DNA of 64,000 nucleotides from Dicyema japonicum (Eukaryota; Dicyemida; Rhombozoa; Dicyemidae), in NCBI GenBank assembly GCA_011109175.1, contig RDEW01000018.1, forward strand, positions 78,895-142,894. Direction: 5' to 3'. Each line of letters opens with the position of its first letter. Position 1 is the stretch's first letter. Below, piece after piece: positions 2,603-54,563 of this stretch. Made by a program: the position numbers and the translations under genes. The notes under the pieces are model-generated. The model ran no database searches and had not been told where the DNA came from. It worked only from the letters and a program-made list of their open reading frames with translations.

Positions 2603-3342
2603 ATGTTTAGTGGAGTGTTATCAAAAGTACTAAAATATAGGAAAATTTATACAAAACACTCAAAAATTGATGGTTATCTATATTTATTATTGTCTAGAAA
2701 TAAAATTCGCAATTTTGGAACAATCAGTAAAACTTGTCCCCGAATACGGATGGACTCGTTACAACTTAATTAAGAGTTTATTGGCTAATGATAGATTAGG
2801 CTGCAACATACTGGGATATCCATGCTCCTCTCTTTCTGTACTTTTTAAAGAAGGCCCAGTCAGCATTGCTTATTTTTTCCACAATAAATGCGCTACTCGT
2901 ATACTAGATCTGGTCACCAAACAAGACAAAATGTTTAATTTTTTTAACTATAATTAAAATTTTTATTAAAAAATAGAAAAAATGTTTCATCAAATGAAAT
3001 AATAAAAAATATTATAAAAACAAAATATGAGGAAACTGATGATTGGCCGGCAGCTTTATCATTGATGTGTCTCCCAAAAAATATTCAGACAACAAATGAT
3101 GTATTTTTTAAGTTAGTTAGCAATATTCACTCCCTTACTGGTAAATCTGGATCGGTATTTCATTCAGGTTATTTTTGCAGAATTTGGAGTTTCTCAGAAT
3201 TGCAGGATTATTTGTCGCGGCTGAACTAAGAGTGGCAGGGCAGGAAAAACCAGAATTTGATGAATTAGAGGACGTGTTATTTAAATTGGGTGGTGGAGAT
3301 TTTGAACAATGTTTTAAAGTTGGAAATTGGTATATTGTATAA
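2603..3342 (+). CDS. COQ9: COQ9-like ubiquinone biosynthesis protein, four exons with 25-, 44- and 26-nt introns
   Basis: COQ9 is a mitochondrial lipid-binding protein that helps COQ7 hydroxylate the coenzyme Q precursor. Exons 2603-2672, 2698-2932, 2977-3154 and 3181-3342 join to 214 codons plus stop. The first 22 residues are basic and lack acids until the first junction, as in a mitochondrial presequence. Next comes ILEQSVKLVPEYGWT, the family's N-terminal helix with the invariant GWT. After that come DDWPAALSLMCLPKNI, matching the family WPxALSxMxLPxNI block, and a C-terminal helix with AGLFVAAELRV. The introns are 2673-2697, 2933-2976 and 3155-3180, all GT...AG, and each removal keeps the family alignment continuous. 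The protein is shorter than the human one (about 318 residues), mainly at the N-terminus. It is intact, and retroelements flank it on both sides. Recognition is from memory of the family; exon ends are my inference. Confidence 0.9.
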
Positions 3343-3449
3343 ATATATTAGATGGCTCTGACTCTTAGAGATTTGGTTAGTTAGATAATAATTTTGTTAT
3401 AGAATATATAAAATATCCATTAATTTTTATCTTTATTTTTTAAAGGACA

Positions 3450-3635
3450 ACAATCGAGGAAACCGAAACCAATTTATTCAACAGCAAATAAGGAGTGAGT
3501 TTAAGTGATATTTAAACGTGTCCTCCTATATGGCCTGGACACTTCCGATGGACCCCATCTCCATTTAGTCTGTTCCTATCGTCGGATCCCATCGATCCTT
3601 TTCTCTACAATATATTTGACCGGTGTTAGATTCTT
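3450..3635 (-). mobile_element. 3' end fragment of a LINE (same family as 6919-8031)
   Basis: The plus-strand text from about 3455 (the ACCAATTTATTC phrase, then the cluster around CCTGGACACTTCCGATG and TCGGATCCCAT) matches 6930-7090 closely. That stretch is the 3' untranslated end of the LINE at 6919-8031. Here only the last 190 bases survive, with a TTGGTTTCGG-type tail at the left. Confidence 0.7.
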
Positions 3636-3639
3636 GTCT

Positions 3640-4790
3640 TCATCGGTAGCGTTTGGCATGCTGGGTTGTTGAAAACTTTGTCAAATTTTAATGTTGGGAG
3701 CAAAGCTCTAGTGTGGATGAAGGATTTTCTTTGGTAGAGAATCTTTTATACGTGTTGGAGATCATACATCGAAGAAAATTTTGTTAAAAAGAGGGGTTCC
3801 ACAAGGGTCTGTCTTAAGTCCCCTTTTATTGAATTGCGTTATGTGTGACATCCCGAAGTTTATTATTATTATAAGCAACTACATAGAATCATATAAACTA
3901 TAATTCTATTCGTGCCGCGTCTGAACAATCCTCTTAATTAGCCTTTCCCATCCCCTCCTGTCCGATGCCAAGTGCCGCAGACTACTAAGGTCTTCACCGT
4001 CCTTTAGTAGTCTGGTTACTGACTGCTATGGGGTCCGAAGTTTGAACACCTAAATTCGAAAATGTTAATATATGCCGATGATATTCTTTTGCTCGATCTT
4101 AGTATTAATAGATCGATTTCCTGGAAACGTGTTTCGACACATGCCGAAATAATTAAATGCTGGTGCCGAGACAAAGGTTTATCTTTATCTCTTGAAAAAT
4201 GTACTGCTTCATGGATTGTGAATTTCAAGAACAAATCAAAGATTTGTATTGATACTGGAGCGATCAAATGCATGGAGCAGTTACAATATCTTGGTGTTTG
4301 TGTGAACTCGAAGGGTTCCTTCATTAATTATATCAAAAAAGAAGAAAAAAGCTACGGCGATGTTGAAATCGATTCTACGTTTTCAATTGAGTCCGGAAAC
4401 TTTTCTTTATGTGTATACAGCTTGTATAGAACCATTCTTGATTTATGGCTTCCAAGGATGGTTTGAAAGTGATGAGAGAAGTACTATTGTAGAGCTTCTC
4501 GATAAATCGAGGAGATATGCTATTAAACTGGCATATGGACTTGATTTAAAGTCTAAATTACCGCCAAGTGATGAGAGACGTGCAAGATCCATTGAGGAAA
4601 TATTGCACCACTTGAAAAAATAATTCTTGTTGGATGCAAGGGGTCAATAATTCAGAGGAGACATATGGTTGTCTCGTTAAACCAGACCCCATCAACCAGG
4701 ACAAACTCGTTGGCTTCTCCCTTTTTAATTAGTTTTTAAGTAGTAACGAGTTTGCTACGTTAATAAAGTATCTATCTATCTAAATAAGTT
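3640..4790 (+). mobile_element. LINE reverse transcriptase fragment with a nested insertion
   Basis: Translation shows GSVWHAGLLKTL, then KRGVPQGSVLSPLL (RT motif near 3795-3830), then YADDILLLD (catalytic YADD near 4070). The C-terminal RT thumb follows, ending near 4623. A 173-bp insertion (3862-4034) lies between the PQGS and YADD motifs. Removing it with one 9-bp duplication restores an uninterrupted frame across the site. The 3' region ends in a short ATCT repeat (about 4775-4788), a different tail from the TAA tails of the other LINEs here. Confidence 0.85.
3853..4043 (-). mobile_element. 5'-truncated LINE insertion with 9-bp target duplication
   Basis: CCGAAGTTT occurs at 3853-3861 and at 4035-4043. 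The inserted DNA (3862-4034) begins on the plus strand with ATT repeats. These are the (TAA)n tail of an element inserted in minus orientation. Its body is a short 3' end with no coding capacity. The host ORF reads straight through once the insert and one duplicate are removed. Confidence 0.85.
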
Positions 4791-4804
4791 CAACTTGTGA
4801 GTGT

Positions 4805-52625: not shown

Positions 52626-52734
52626 AACAATAAGGATAATGATTAAACGTTTTACGTTTTACAAAAATAGATTTAAAATTATATATAATTTAATATTTAA
52701 TAATTTTAATATTTTCTGGTGCCCCGGTTTTTGG

Positions 52735-53205
52735 GCTATATGAATCCCGTCAGTTCAAGAGAGACATTCTTCTTGGATTGGGGTTAGCAAATGATTCTTT
52801 TTACTGTGTGACTAAATCCACAGTTGGCGCCACCAGGAACGGCGAAGCACATGGCGCGCGCTAATTTAAATACATGTTTTGAAAATGATAATGAAATATC
52901 AAATATAACACCAAGTATTTTATAGTTTTTAATGACAGGAAGGAGACTGTTGTTAAGAAACAACGTTGTTTCCATATTGAATGACGACGTTCAGTTGTGA
53001 AAAGCCTTTCTTTAGAAGGAATGAGGAGATTTTGGTCCAACCAAGAAGAAATTTTTACAATAATTATTGATAGCGTGAAGAAATTATGATATCGTGGGCA
53101 TAAGAAAGGAGTGTGTTCTGGTTTATTGGTAAGCTTTCTAGATGATTAAATAAGGCCGAAAAAACAGACCCTTTACAAACGTCATTTGGATGGTATCGAT
53201 AACGA
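52735..53205 (-). mobile_element. Jockey-like RT fragments
   Basis: SALFNHLESLPINQNTLLSYAHDIIISS (53180-53070; YADD changed to YAHD) and KILGVIFDISLSFSKHVFKLAR (52940-52870) are consecutive blocks of an RT. The segment 52740-52860, with TGGCGCCACC, distantly resembles the foldback/SINE-like repeat. Confidence 0.7.
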
Positions 53206-53515
53206 GAGTACGTAACCTGCACCGACACGTTTGCCCCTAGTAACCTACTCCAGAGTGCCTCTGAAACCTGTTCTGCCGCTGAGAAAGCCGAGATGTTGAA
53301 ATGGGTAAAGTACACGGTCCTACCCAATGATTTTTTGTTCGTTCCATTCGCCGTTAAAACGTCTGCTTCCCTTGCACCTGTGACGCTGGAATTCTTGAGT
53401 CGTCTAGGAAATCAGATTTCTAACGACCGGGAGACCCCCGTGAGCGCTGCTGGTTATTTGAGCGAATTTCGTTCGCCATCATGAGAGGGAATAGCCATGC
53501 AGTCAGAGCTAGATA
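53205..53515 (+). mobile_element. RLE-A C-terminal end
   Basis: AEKAEMLKWVKYTVLPNDFLFVPFAVKTSASLAPVTLEFLSRLGNQIS matches the copy at 26188-26847 and, inverted, 12122-12420. It ends in the frameshifted GNSHAVRA tail near 53505. Confidence 0.78.
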
Positions 53516-53859
53516 TTTTCAGGTGATGACCTCGAAAGATAACAAAGATTTGAGTTTAGAAAGTCAGTAGCATGGGAGACTGGTGGGAATCGTCCGGCTT
53601 TTTCGAAATAAATCAACAGTTCAAGATGGGATGTGAAAAAACATAACATCGACTTTAAAAGACGGGAAGGATGTTCAAGAATAGTCCTTGAAAACACGCT
53701 CGGTCTCATTCATATATGAATCCCATTTTCGCGTTTATAGTTAATGTATGTCTTCTTACTCCTCAAGTTAATGGGCTATTGGTTTTAGTAATGGACGCTA
53801 ATCAAAAAAAATTCATTTATATTTAAACATCTAAATATATATATTTAAAAATTAAAAAT
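53516..53859. other. Spacer upstream of the SFT2-like gene; no gene seen
   Basis: Weakly repetitive, AT-rich from 53790 onward. A 66-codon minus-strand frame (53709-53509) has no recognisable motif. Confidence 0.4.
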
Positions 53860-54563
53860 ATGAATATAATTAAATTCAAAAAAATTTGTTGGCCTATGCA
53901 GAAGGTTAAAGAGTTTGTTGGTATTGAAAAACCAGAAGAAGATAAGAATGTATTTGAGAAAGTTATCTATTTTTTAATTATAGGTTACGGGAATTGCAAC
54001 ATTGAGTTGGAGTACAAGAATAAAAGGCTTTTTAATTTGTTTTATACTTGGTACCATTATGTCACTTCTTGTATGTAATTTTTTGATTTTTTTAATTTAT
54101 ATAATTGCTAAATTTAATTTAGGGCTGTTTTCTCCTATTTAGTAACGGTGGGCTTACTAACTTTGCCGTTCTATACTCTTTTGGGAACATTATGACTTTG
54201 TTCAGGTATAAATTTATGATAATATAAAATAAATAATAACAATAATATTTAGCACCATGTTTTTATCTGGACCTATTAAACAGTTGAAAAATATGATGGC
54301 TTACAAAAGAATCGTTGCCACTTTACTCTACTTGGTTTGTCCTCATATATTAATTTTAGCTCACATTATGTCTCACGATAACTATGGCTGTGGTTAGTGG
54401 TCAATATTATTTTAGATCGGGCAAGATGGCTTGGCTATTTTGTTTTGTATTTTACAGTATTTGGCATTGATTTGGTATACCCTATCTTACATTCCATTCG
54501 CGAGGTTTTATTAACATCTACTTTAGGGATGCCGTTATCAGAATTTTGGGTTCCTGCTTTTAA
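53860..54563 (+). CDS. SFT2D1: SFT2-family vesicle transport membrane protein, six exons with tiny introns
   Basis: SFT2 proteins are tetra-spanning Golgi membrane proteins involved in retrograde traffic. Exons: 53860-53961, 53984-54070, 54123-54205, 54253-54392, 54426-54504, 54527-54563, totalling 175 residues (human SFT2D1 and SFT2D2 about 160). The cytoplasmic N-terminus is followed by [17 protein letters not shown] (family LSFNTRLKWFAICFVCG), then [30 protein letters not shown]. After those come a hydrophobic helix, [30 protein letters not shown] and a short tail. The GPxKQLK and SYIPFARDAV motifs are family signatures. Introns are 22, 52, 47, about 33 and 22 nt. The ends of the fourth are ambiguous (54393-54425 is the choice that keeps GLAILF in frame). 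There are no internal stops. SFT2D1 versus SFT2D2 cannot be assigned. Confidence 0.92.

Follow-up and report, generated by a model that had tools for sequence, protein, structure and literature searches.

Five genes in the 64,000-nucleotide stretch analysed here (hereafter the window) are split by interruptions that are mostly 21-28 nucleotides (nt) long. We are highly confident that the window is dicyemid nuclear DNA and that these interruptions are U2-type spliceosomal introns shrunk to 20-28 nt, which would be excised by a major spliceosome whose U1, U2 and U6 small nuclear RNAs (snRNAs) are canonical. Our confidence in this joint explanation goes no higher because the host assignment depends on a single gene. 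The window lies on contig 77 of an assembly of 64.67 Mb in 191 contigs. An original prediction, made from the letters of the window, had described ultra-short introns in COQ9, LSM6, DPH5, a PROPPIN gene and SFT2. That observation is real and was read correctly, and introns of this kind are already known from dicyemids.

Five split genes in the window

Between positions 2603 (first ATG of COQ9) and 54563 (stop codon of SFT2), limits set by the original prediction, the five genes contain 27 introns. Of these, 22 are 21-28 nt long and the other five measure 44, 47, 52, 56 and 82 nt. About 26 interruptions had been predicted, about 19 of them of 21-28 nt; the ultra-short majority stands, and the exact counts are replaced by ours. 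All 27 introns start with GT and 26 end with AG, in agreement with the single exception that had been allowed for (DPH5 32288-32309, GT..TG). The three examples that had been quoted, 25439-25462 in LSM6, 32146-32166 in DPH5 (21 nt) and 3155-3180 in COQ9, were correct. The genes and introns are as follows, in window positions.

2603..3342, + strand: COQ9 gene, 4 introns (25, 24, 44, 26 nt)
2673..2697, + strand: COQ9 intron 1, 25 nt, GT-AG, placed by eye
2776..2799, + strand: COQ9 intron 2, 24 nt, multiple of three, stop-free
2933..2976, + strand: COQ9 intron 3, 44 nt, GT-AG, re-placed after spliced alignment
3155..3180, + strand: COQ9 intron 4, 26 nt, GT-AG, placed by eye
25234..25491, + strand: LSM6 gene, 77 residues, 1 intron, PF01423 58 bits
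25439..25462, + strand: LSM6 intron, 24 nt, GT-AG
31695..32725, + strand: DPH5 gene, 288 residues, 7 introns (22, 28, 23, 21, 22, 23, 25 nt), TIGR00522 204 bits (cut-off 114)
31827..31848, + strand: DPH5 intron 1, 22 nt
31910..31937, + strand: DPH5 intron 2, 28 nt
32002..32024, + strand: DPH5 intron 3, 23 nt
32146..32166, + strand: DPH5 intron 4, 21 nt, multiple of three, stop-free, 7 residues absent from homologs
32288..32309, + strand: DPH5 intron 5, 22 nt, GT..TG, the window's sole non-canonical end
32350..32372, + strand: DPH5 intron 6, 23 nt
32462..32486, + strand: DPH5 intron 7, 25 nt, positioned by eye where conservation is poor
33174..34465, + strand: PROPPIN (WIPI3/4-like) gene, 326 residues, 9 introns (25, 25, 26, 23, 82, 24, 26, 56, 24 nt), PF21032 97.3 bits
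33202..33226, + strand: PROPPIN intron 1, 25 nt
33302..33326, + strand: PROPPIN intron 2, 25 nt
33429..33454, + strand: PROPPIN intron 3, 26 nt
33543..33565, + strand: PROPPIN intron 4, 23 nt
33661..33742, + strand: PROPPIN intron 5, 82 nt
33928..33951, + strand: PROPPIN intron 6, 24 nt
34038..34063, + strand: PROPPIN intron 7, 26 nt
34157..34212, + strand: PROPPIN intron 8, 56 nt, placed by eye
34353..34376, + strand: PROPPIN intron 9, 24 nt
53860..54563, + strand: SFT2 gene, 170 residues, 6 introns placed by eye (22, 52, 47, 25, 23, 22 nt), PF04178 99.8 bits
53962..53983, + strand: SFT2 intron 1, 22 nt
54071..54122, + strand: SFT2 intron 2, 52 nt
54206..54252, + strand: SFT2 intron 3, 47 nt
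54335..54359, + strand: SFT2 intron 4, 25 nt
54393..54415, + strand: SFT2 intron 5, 23 nt
54505..54526, + strand: SFT2 intron 6, 22 nt

Removal of the introns gives an uninterrupted protein for each gene: 206 residues for COQ9, 77 for LSM6, 288 for DPH5, 326 for PROPPIN (provisional at the start, where the N-terminus is not pinned to an ATG) and 170 for SFT2. Removal had been said to restore both frame and conserved residues. All five reading frames are indeed open; however, DPH5 intron 4 and COQ9 intron 2 are both multiples of three without an in-frame stop, so that the frame proves neither. At the DPH5 site, four residues are found in 92 of 92 scored homologs (28 of 120 were unscored), against 11 if the intron were retained, and excision of COQ9 intron 2 leaves the alignment with human COQ9 gap-free there. 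Joining the exons raises the DPH5 match to PF00590 from 25.6 bits (exon 1 alone) to 53.7 bits, and the PROPPIN match to PF21032 from 17 bits (single exon) to 97.3 bits. The proteins had been said to match their families end to end. Profile scores for DPH5, PROPPIN, SFT2 and LSM6 are given in the list above; COQ9 is the weakest of the five genes. Its spliced protein scores 59.7 bits against TIGR02396 (cut-off 74.55), matches COQ9 in the PDB with an E-value of 8.5e-4, and has no Pfam match over the cut-off.

Intron lengths in a wider sample

Together with the five window genes, we curated PRP8, CCT1, CCT2, CCT3, CCT5, HSP60, Zic and a U2AF2-like gene, giving 13 genes with 96 introns. The genes were picked for their conservation and the introns were placed partly by eye; this is a selected sample, neither a census nor a whole annotation. 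Four of the nine Cpn60/TCP1 genes, the PAX loci, the other LSM and RRM loci and all 11 proteasome loci were left out of the modelling.

Ninety of the 96 introns are 20-28 nt long (mean 23.52, standard deviation 1.34), with a mode of 23-24 nt: one of 20 nt, four of 21, 13 of 22, 28 of 23, 25 of 24, 13 of 25, five of 26 and one of 28. The remaining six measure 44-82 nt, and the mean over all 96 is 25.7 nt. The short introns of the window (mean 24.0 nt, n=22) do not differ significantly from those of the other genes (23.4 nt, n=68; p 0.13). Intron ends are GT-AG in 94 cases, GC-AG in one and GT-TG in one, with GT-AG partly assumed in the placement. Using approximate codon counts, PRP8, four CCT genes and HSP60 have about 1.2-2.4 introns per 100 codons. 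Divided by three, the short-intron lengths leave a remainder of 0 in 29 cases, 1 in 27 and 2 in 34, and multiples of three are thus not scarce.

Curation changed a number of the spliced-alignment calls. We replaced calls in PRP8 (17 nt by 23 nt), CCT3 (17 by 23), CCT2 (19 by 24) and PROPPIN (119 by 56), and dropped calls of 20 nt in CCT5 and 13 nt in HSP60 as frame breaks. PRP8 6132-6154 was lengthened by one base to reach an AG, the last DPH5 intron and the third COQ9 intron were re-placed, and the 21-nt DPH5 intron, which the aligner had kept as a gap, was added by hand. COQ9 introns 1 and 4, all introns of SFT2 and of the U2AF2-like gene, and the first Zic intron were placed by eye.

A control without a splice-site rule

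Because the position of most introns was set either by eye or by an aligner with a preference for GT-AG, some of the GT-AG fraction is there by construction, and a control was required. PRP8 was chosen for its close alignment with human Prp8, in which 110-residue chunks are each 75-97% identical; on a human reference of 1,539 residues, it has 24 curated introns of 20-26 nt. When PRP8 was aligned without any splice-site preference, 21 of 25 interruptions took a GT..AG of identical length within 6 bases, a placement found in 4.5% of trials with random segments of like length. Of the four failures, two are artefacts of 5 nt, one of them at a frame break and the other in a poorly conserved stretch, with the result that a curated 23-nt intron was missed; the remaining two had slid by 11-13 bases relative to curated introns of matching length. 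This bears out the earlier statement that the introns are not an alignment accident. A codon-usage gene model with a uniform prior of 12-300 nt also re-found most PRP8 introns; it had been trained on the same genes and therefore gives no independent test, and as it was too weak at other loci it was excluded from the counts.

Splice signals and a possible branch point

The 5' splice site holds 0.23 bits over intron composition at positions +3 to +6 (1.83 bits against uniform composition). GTRAGT donors occur in two of 88 introns, and the mean match to CAG/GTAAGT is 4.8 of 9 positions. A very weak 5' consensus, of 0.5 bits by that study's own measure, has been described for dicyemids (PMC2483917), and the introns here share it. 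Intron interiors have a mean A+T content of 83%, versus 57.5% in exonic GT..AG pairs of 20-26 nt. The introns are thus marked by GT, AG, length and A+T, and are otherwise nearly featureless.

One further signal was found near the 3' end. Among the GT-AG introns of the 80 short introns whose phase could be resolved (10 more were ambiguous), A occupies position -7 in 56%, versus 32% expected (z 4.8), and this holds outside PRP8 (z 5.0). In a set of 88 introns, the motif YTNAY places its A at -7 in 13 cases and at -8 in 12, with about five expected at each position. A 2008 survey found no branch-point signature in the dicyemid introns known at that time (PMC2483917). The weak A at -7/-8 may mark the branch point. 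The branch-point A would then be separated from the 3' end by about 7-8 nt and from the 5' splice site by about 15-17 nt, leaving no room for a polypyrimidine tract. We propose that U2-type introns shrank into a narrow length class of 20-28 nt, with its mode at 23-24 nt, and that the major spliceosome with its canonical snRNAs would excise them from pre-mRNA. Recognition would be by intron definition, with GT, AG, high A+T and a permitted length taking the place of strong motifs.

Spliceosomal RNAs and proteins

The genome contains matches to each of the U1, U2 and U6 snRNAs. U2 has 22 of 25 matches over the Rfam cut-off and U6 nine of 10, whereas the 11 U1 matches all fall just under it (best 69.0 versus 69.5). 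U1 starts at its 5' end with ACTTACCTGG in three of the four copies read and with ACTTACTTGG in the other; U2 carries GTGTAGTA and U6 carries ACAGAGA in three of three copies read. A U2AF2-like gene, joined across introns of 22, 23, 68, 22 and 23 nt, matches TIGR01642 exon by exon, with a best score of 82.6 bits, where the whole-protein family cut-off is 310. Judged by their sequences, the parts of the machinery that we examined, namely the recognition parts of U1, U2 and U6 and the aligned part of Prp8, appear ordinary. The GT-AG ends, the restored conserved residues, the canonical recognition sequences and the U2AF2-like gene together uphold the predicted spliceosomal nature of the introns.

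These components also bear on an alternative in which tiny introns are handled by a spliceosome that is reduced or altered and has become specialised for them, as has been conjectured for the branching factors of Stentor. The donors described above are weak despite a canonical U1, and short human introns are reported to need SMU1/RED and, in a subset, RBM17 (PMC6692369, PMC8363638). However, the aligned part of Prp8 is near that of human, U1, U2 and U6 are ordinary and a U2AF2-like gene is present, and we therefore consider such a spliceosome rather unlikely, though it is the strongest of the alternatives. With these recognition parts and most of Prp8 looking ordinary, and a U2AF2-like gene present, excision of the shrunken U2-type introns by the canonical major spliceosome may need no rebuilt core to tolerate their small size.

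Each of the major snRNA genes exists in several copies; on contig 115, six copies of U2 lie within about 111 kb. In intron 4 of the U2AF2-like gene, on contig 114, two in-frame AG acceptors lie 3 bases apart (19 or 22 nt) and may form a tandem acceptor.

A possible minor spliceosome

The assembly has a single match over the Rfam cut-off for each of two minor-spliceosome snRNAs:

contig 68, 163471-163599, - strand: U12 snRNA gene, 85.4 bits (cut-off 53)
contig 34, 237761-237858, - strand: U6atac snRNA gene, 37 bits (cut-off 33)

The U12 gene carries GTAAGGAA, which we take to be the U12 branch-recognition sequence, and the U6atac gene carries AAAGGAGAG, presumably the U6atac recognition stretch. 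The U12 stretch folds better than 200 of 200 shuffled sequences (z -3.6). The two genes suggest that the minor spliceosome has been retained. U12-type introns are marked by an RTATCCTT donor and a YCTTRAY branch site; neither motif occurs in any of the 96 curated introns. A scan of 256,786 bases found donor-like sites, none with a well-placed branch motif, in what is too little sequence to weigh.

A pan-eukaryotic survey of minor introns left out introns under 30 bp in every species, and its main text does not mention dicyemids. Among the papers listed by our search of the open-access literature, none has a title or abstract opening on a dicyemid minor spliceosome. It is conceivable, and we advance it only tentatively, that this animal has kept both spliceosomes, with major introns cut to 23-24 nt whose branch A sits some 7-8 nt before the 3' end, and that its minor introns may also be under 30 nt. 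If true, these would be shorter than any minor intron in that survey and would show the smallest intron that both machines can handle.

The host

The host was assigned by means of the Zic gene. In a 17-row tree, its protein forms a clade supported at 100/100 with ZicA and ZicB of Dicyema acuticephalum and a record labelled Octopus sinensis. It matches D. acuticephalum ZicA as one domain of 336.5 bits that spans residues 23-282 of 310, including parts outside the fingers, with 56% identity over 89% of the query. Among the 11 proteins listed, the best single-domain score of a Zic outside the dicyemid group is 258.1 bits. A 26-nt intron interrupts the linker that joins fingers 3 and 4, at a site where the ZicA and ZicB proteins read HTGEKPF without interruption. 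The two D. acuticephalum Zic genes were cloned both as cDNA and as genomic DNA, and have a single intron that splits the finger domain at its centre, a position that is conserved in bilaterians and absent from cnidarian Zic (PMC2222250). The zf_ZIC profile has one match in the present genome, whereas D. acuticephalum has two Zic genes. The present genome is not that of D. acuticephalum.

When the exons of CCT1 are joined by hand, the product shares about 62% identity with CCT1 of animals. The best 120 matches for CCT1 and for DPH5, many of them nameless, include no dicyemid among those that carry a name. The assembly size supports a dicyemid host, as it is close to that published for D. japonicum, whose genome is given as 65-67.5 Mb, repeat-rich and with a GC content of about 37% (PMC6736024). 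Resting on one gene tree in which a composition bias is flagged, the assignment makes the host very probably a dicyemid, as had been predicted. The prediction had also mentioned the very compact genes of some myxozoans, which are cnidarians; the mid-domain Zic intron makes a myxozoan unlikely.

Another animal with a compact genome, such as an orthonectid or a myxozoan, is a very unlikely host. The AT-rich, fast-evolving Zic rows are prone to long-branch artefacts, and duck ZIC4 exceeds ZicA on total score (374 versus 337 bits), but does so as two separate domain matches. On a single domain ZicA scores above the best listed Zic from outside the dicyemid group, as given above, and the bilaterian Zic intron is present. 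In addition, introns of the orthonectid I. linei have a median of 57 nt (PMC6543705).

A fifth finger of the form C-x4-C was rejected as a dicyemid Zic trait, as it is present in 63 of 78 scoreable homologs (42 of 120 were unscored). Within the dicyemid Zic clade stands the Octopus sinensis-labelled, ZIC4-like record (P0124, on a 37.6-kb contig), whose protein carries nine additional residues precisely at the junction of the Zic intron. This record probably stems from dicyemid contamination, with a 27-nt intron left unremoved.

Weighing the evidence

A number of results weigh against U2-type introns in a dicyemid genome, or leave individual introns less secure. Among the 80 phase-resolved short introns, 22 are multiples of three and four of these are stop-free, so that the frame needs no removal of those. 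Stop-free introns of this class are reportedly in deficit in Paramecium; here the expected number is 7.8 +/- 2.0, and the deficit is suggestive only. Intron-like GT..AG pairs of 20-26 nt are not specifically depleted in exons (z -1.4 to -1.6), and all exonic pairs score z -3.2 at 30-36 nt and -3.4 at 40-46 nt, an avoidance that is not length-specific. The rule-free alignment missed the curated PRP8 intron 2814-2836 (23 nt, in a poorly conserved stretch) and its placement of two more was off by 11-13 bases. For PRP8 taken alone (z 1.2) and for the 25-nt introns (z 0.6), the A at -7 falls short of significance. No U1 match exceeds the Rfam cut-off, and the U2AF2-like protein is matched exon by exon and under its family cut-off. 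In the Zic tree, unlike composition is flagged in five of 17 rows, including all four of the dicyemid group, and the present Zic gene model contains, close to the N-terminus, another intron of 23 nt that was positioned by eye, whereas the D. acuticephalum Zic genes have one intron. The DPH5 intron 32288-32309 ends in TG, and a scan for in-frame canonical alternative ends nearby gave none. Finally, the assembly is imperfect, with single-base frame breaks in conserved exons of PRP8, CCT2, CCT5 and HSP60. These breaks, which include loci on contigs 137, 181 and 115, are most likely assembly errors, and because of them an assembly error is also possible at the TG end in DPH5.

Such frame breaks, and the one non-canonical intron end, could be taken to mean that frameshifted pseudogenes or assembly errors mimic introns throughout, which we regard as exceedingly improbable: errors would not yield 90 of 96 interruptions of 20-28 nt beside exons that are 75-97% identical to human Prp8, nor would they give same-length GT..AG placements in a rule-free alignment. 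Equally negligible is programmed DNA elimination, in which the segments would be cut from somatic DNA, like the internal eliminated sequences of ciliates, and not from RNA. The shortest of those sequences are similarly short, AT-rich and uniform. Ciliate internal eliminated sequences have TA at both edges, whereas the ends here are GT-AG and TA stands at both edges in none of the 96 introns. Canonical snRNAs are present, and the D. acuticephalum genes in which such introns were discovered had been cloned in both forms, genomic DNA and cDNA; in favour of elimination, many circular contigs have been published for a genomic assembly of Dicyema sp. (PMC6543705). Splicing of the U2-type introns in the present species is suggested by homology, the nearest RNA evidence being the D. 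acuticephalum Zic cDNA.

Comparison with known short introns

Ultra-short, uniform introns at high density are published for dicyemids (PMC2222250, PMC6543705, PMC6736024). D. acuticephalum introns measure 26.2 +/- 1.9 nt (n=16, PMC2222250), and those of Dicyema sp. have a median of 27 nt, roughly two in three falling below 30 nt (PMC6543705, which also cites Ogino et al. 2010), in line with the predicted resemblance to dicyemid introns. The mean reported for D. japonicum is 38.2 nt over all introns (PMC6736024). The short introns here look slightly shorter than published dicyemid values, with a mode about 3 nt below them. Their mean of 23.5 nt, taken over 90 introns of the <=30 nt class in 13 conserved genes, differs from the 26.2 nt of the 16 D. 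acuticephalum introns (Welch p 4e-5). The weak A at -7/-8 and the U12 and U6atac snRNA genes are likewise new.

Outside dicyemids, introns of Paramecium tetraurelia are similar in length (20-35 nt, PMC2222250), weak splice sites and high intron density (PMC2483917), but belong to an unrelated lineage, and multiples of three are not scarce here. The ciliate Stentor coeruleus has shorter introns of 15-16 nt with a weak consensus and conserved U2 and U6. Its branch A occupies position 10 of 15, the sixth from the 3' end, compared with the seventh to eighth here, and this position is near-fixed in about 91% of introns (PMC9505925). In the nucleomorph of Bigelowiella natans, the nucleus of an algal endosymbiont, introns are 18-21 nt long (PMC2222250) and 5' sites are mostly GT(A) (PMC2483917). 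The lengths seen here are thus near the lowest known for spliceosomes, as had been stated, but shorter ones have been published. The listings and passages covered by our search of the open-access literature contain no report of animal introns shorter than these. Short human introns that depend on RBM17/SPF45 or SMU1/RED resemble them in a truncated polypyrimidine tract and a short distance between 5' splice site and branch point (PMC8363638, PMC6692369), whereas the RBM17 model intron, at 56 nt, is more than twice as long (PMC8363638).

These introns are of interest for a mode shorter than published and for the branch signal they may carry, and the genome adds to this an ordinary core machinery and a lead on the minor spliceosome. 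At 20-24 nt, they probe the smallest substrate for an essentially animal-like spliceosome. If the branch A does lie 7-8 nt from the 3' end, there would be no room for a U2AF2 tract, and the choice between U2AF2 and RBM17, as well as the need for SMU1/RED, would become testable in an animal. Annotation that bars introns this short will misread dicyemid genes, as exemplified by the nine extra residues in the Octopus sinensis-labelled Zic record.

Neighbouring sequence in the window

The GC content of the window is 29-42% per 2-kb step. Retrotransposon-like open reading frames (ORFs), which by eye resemble endonucleases or reverse transcriptases, lie between the host genes at 339-812, 5414-6613, 18364-20414, 45389-46294 and other positions. 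An uninterrupted ORF of 466 residues at 13117-14517 on the - strand differs by eye from the neighbouring repeat ORFs and is possibly a host gene with a single large exon.

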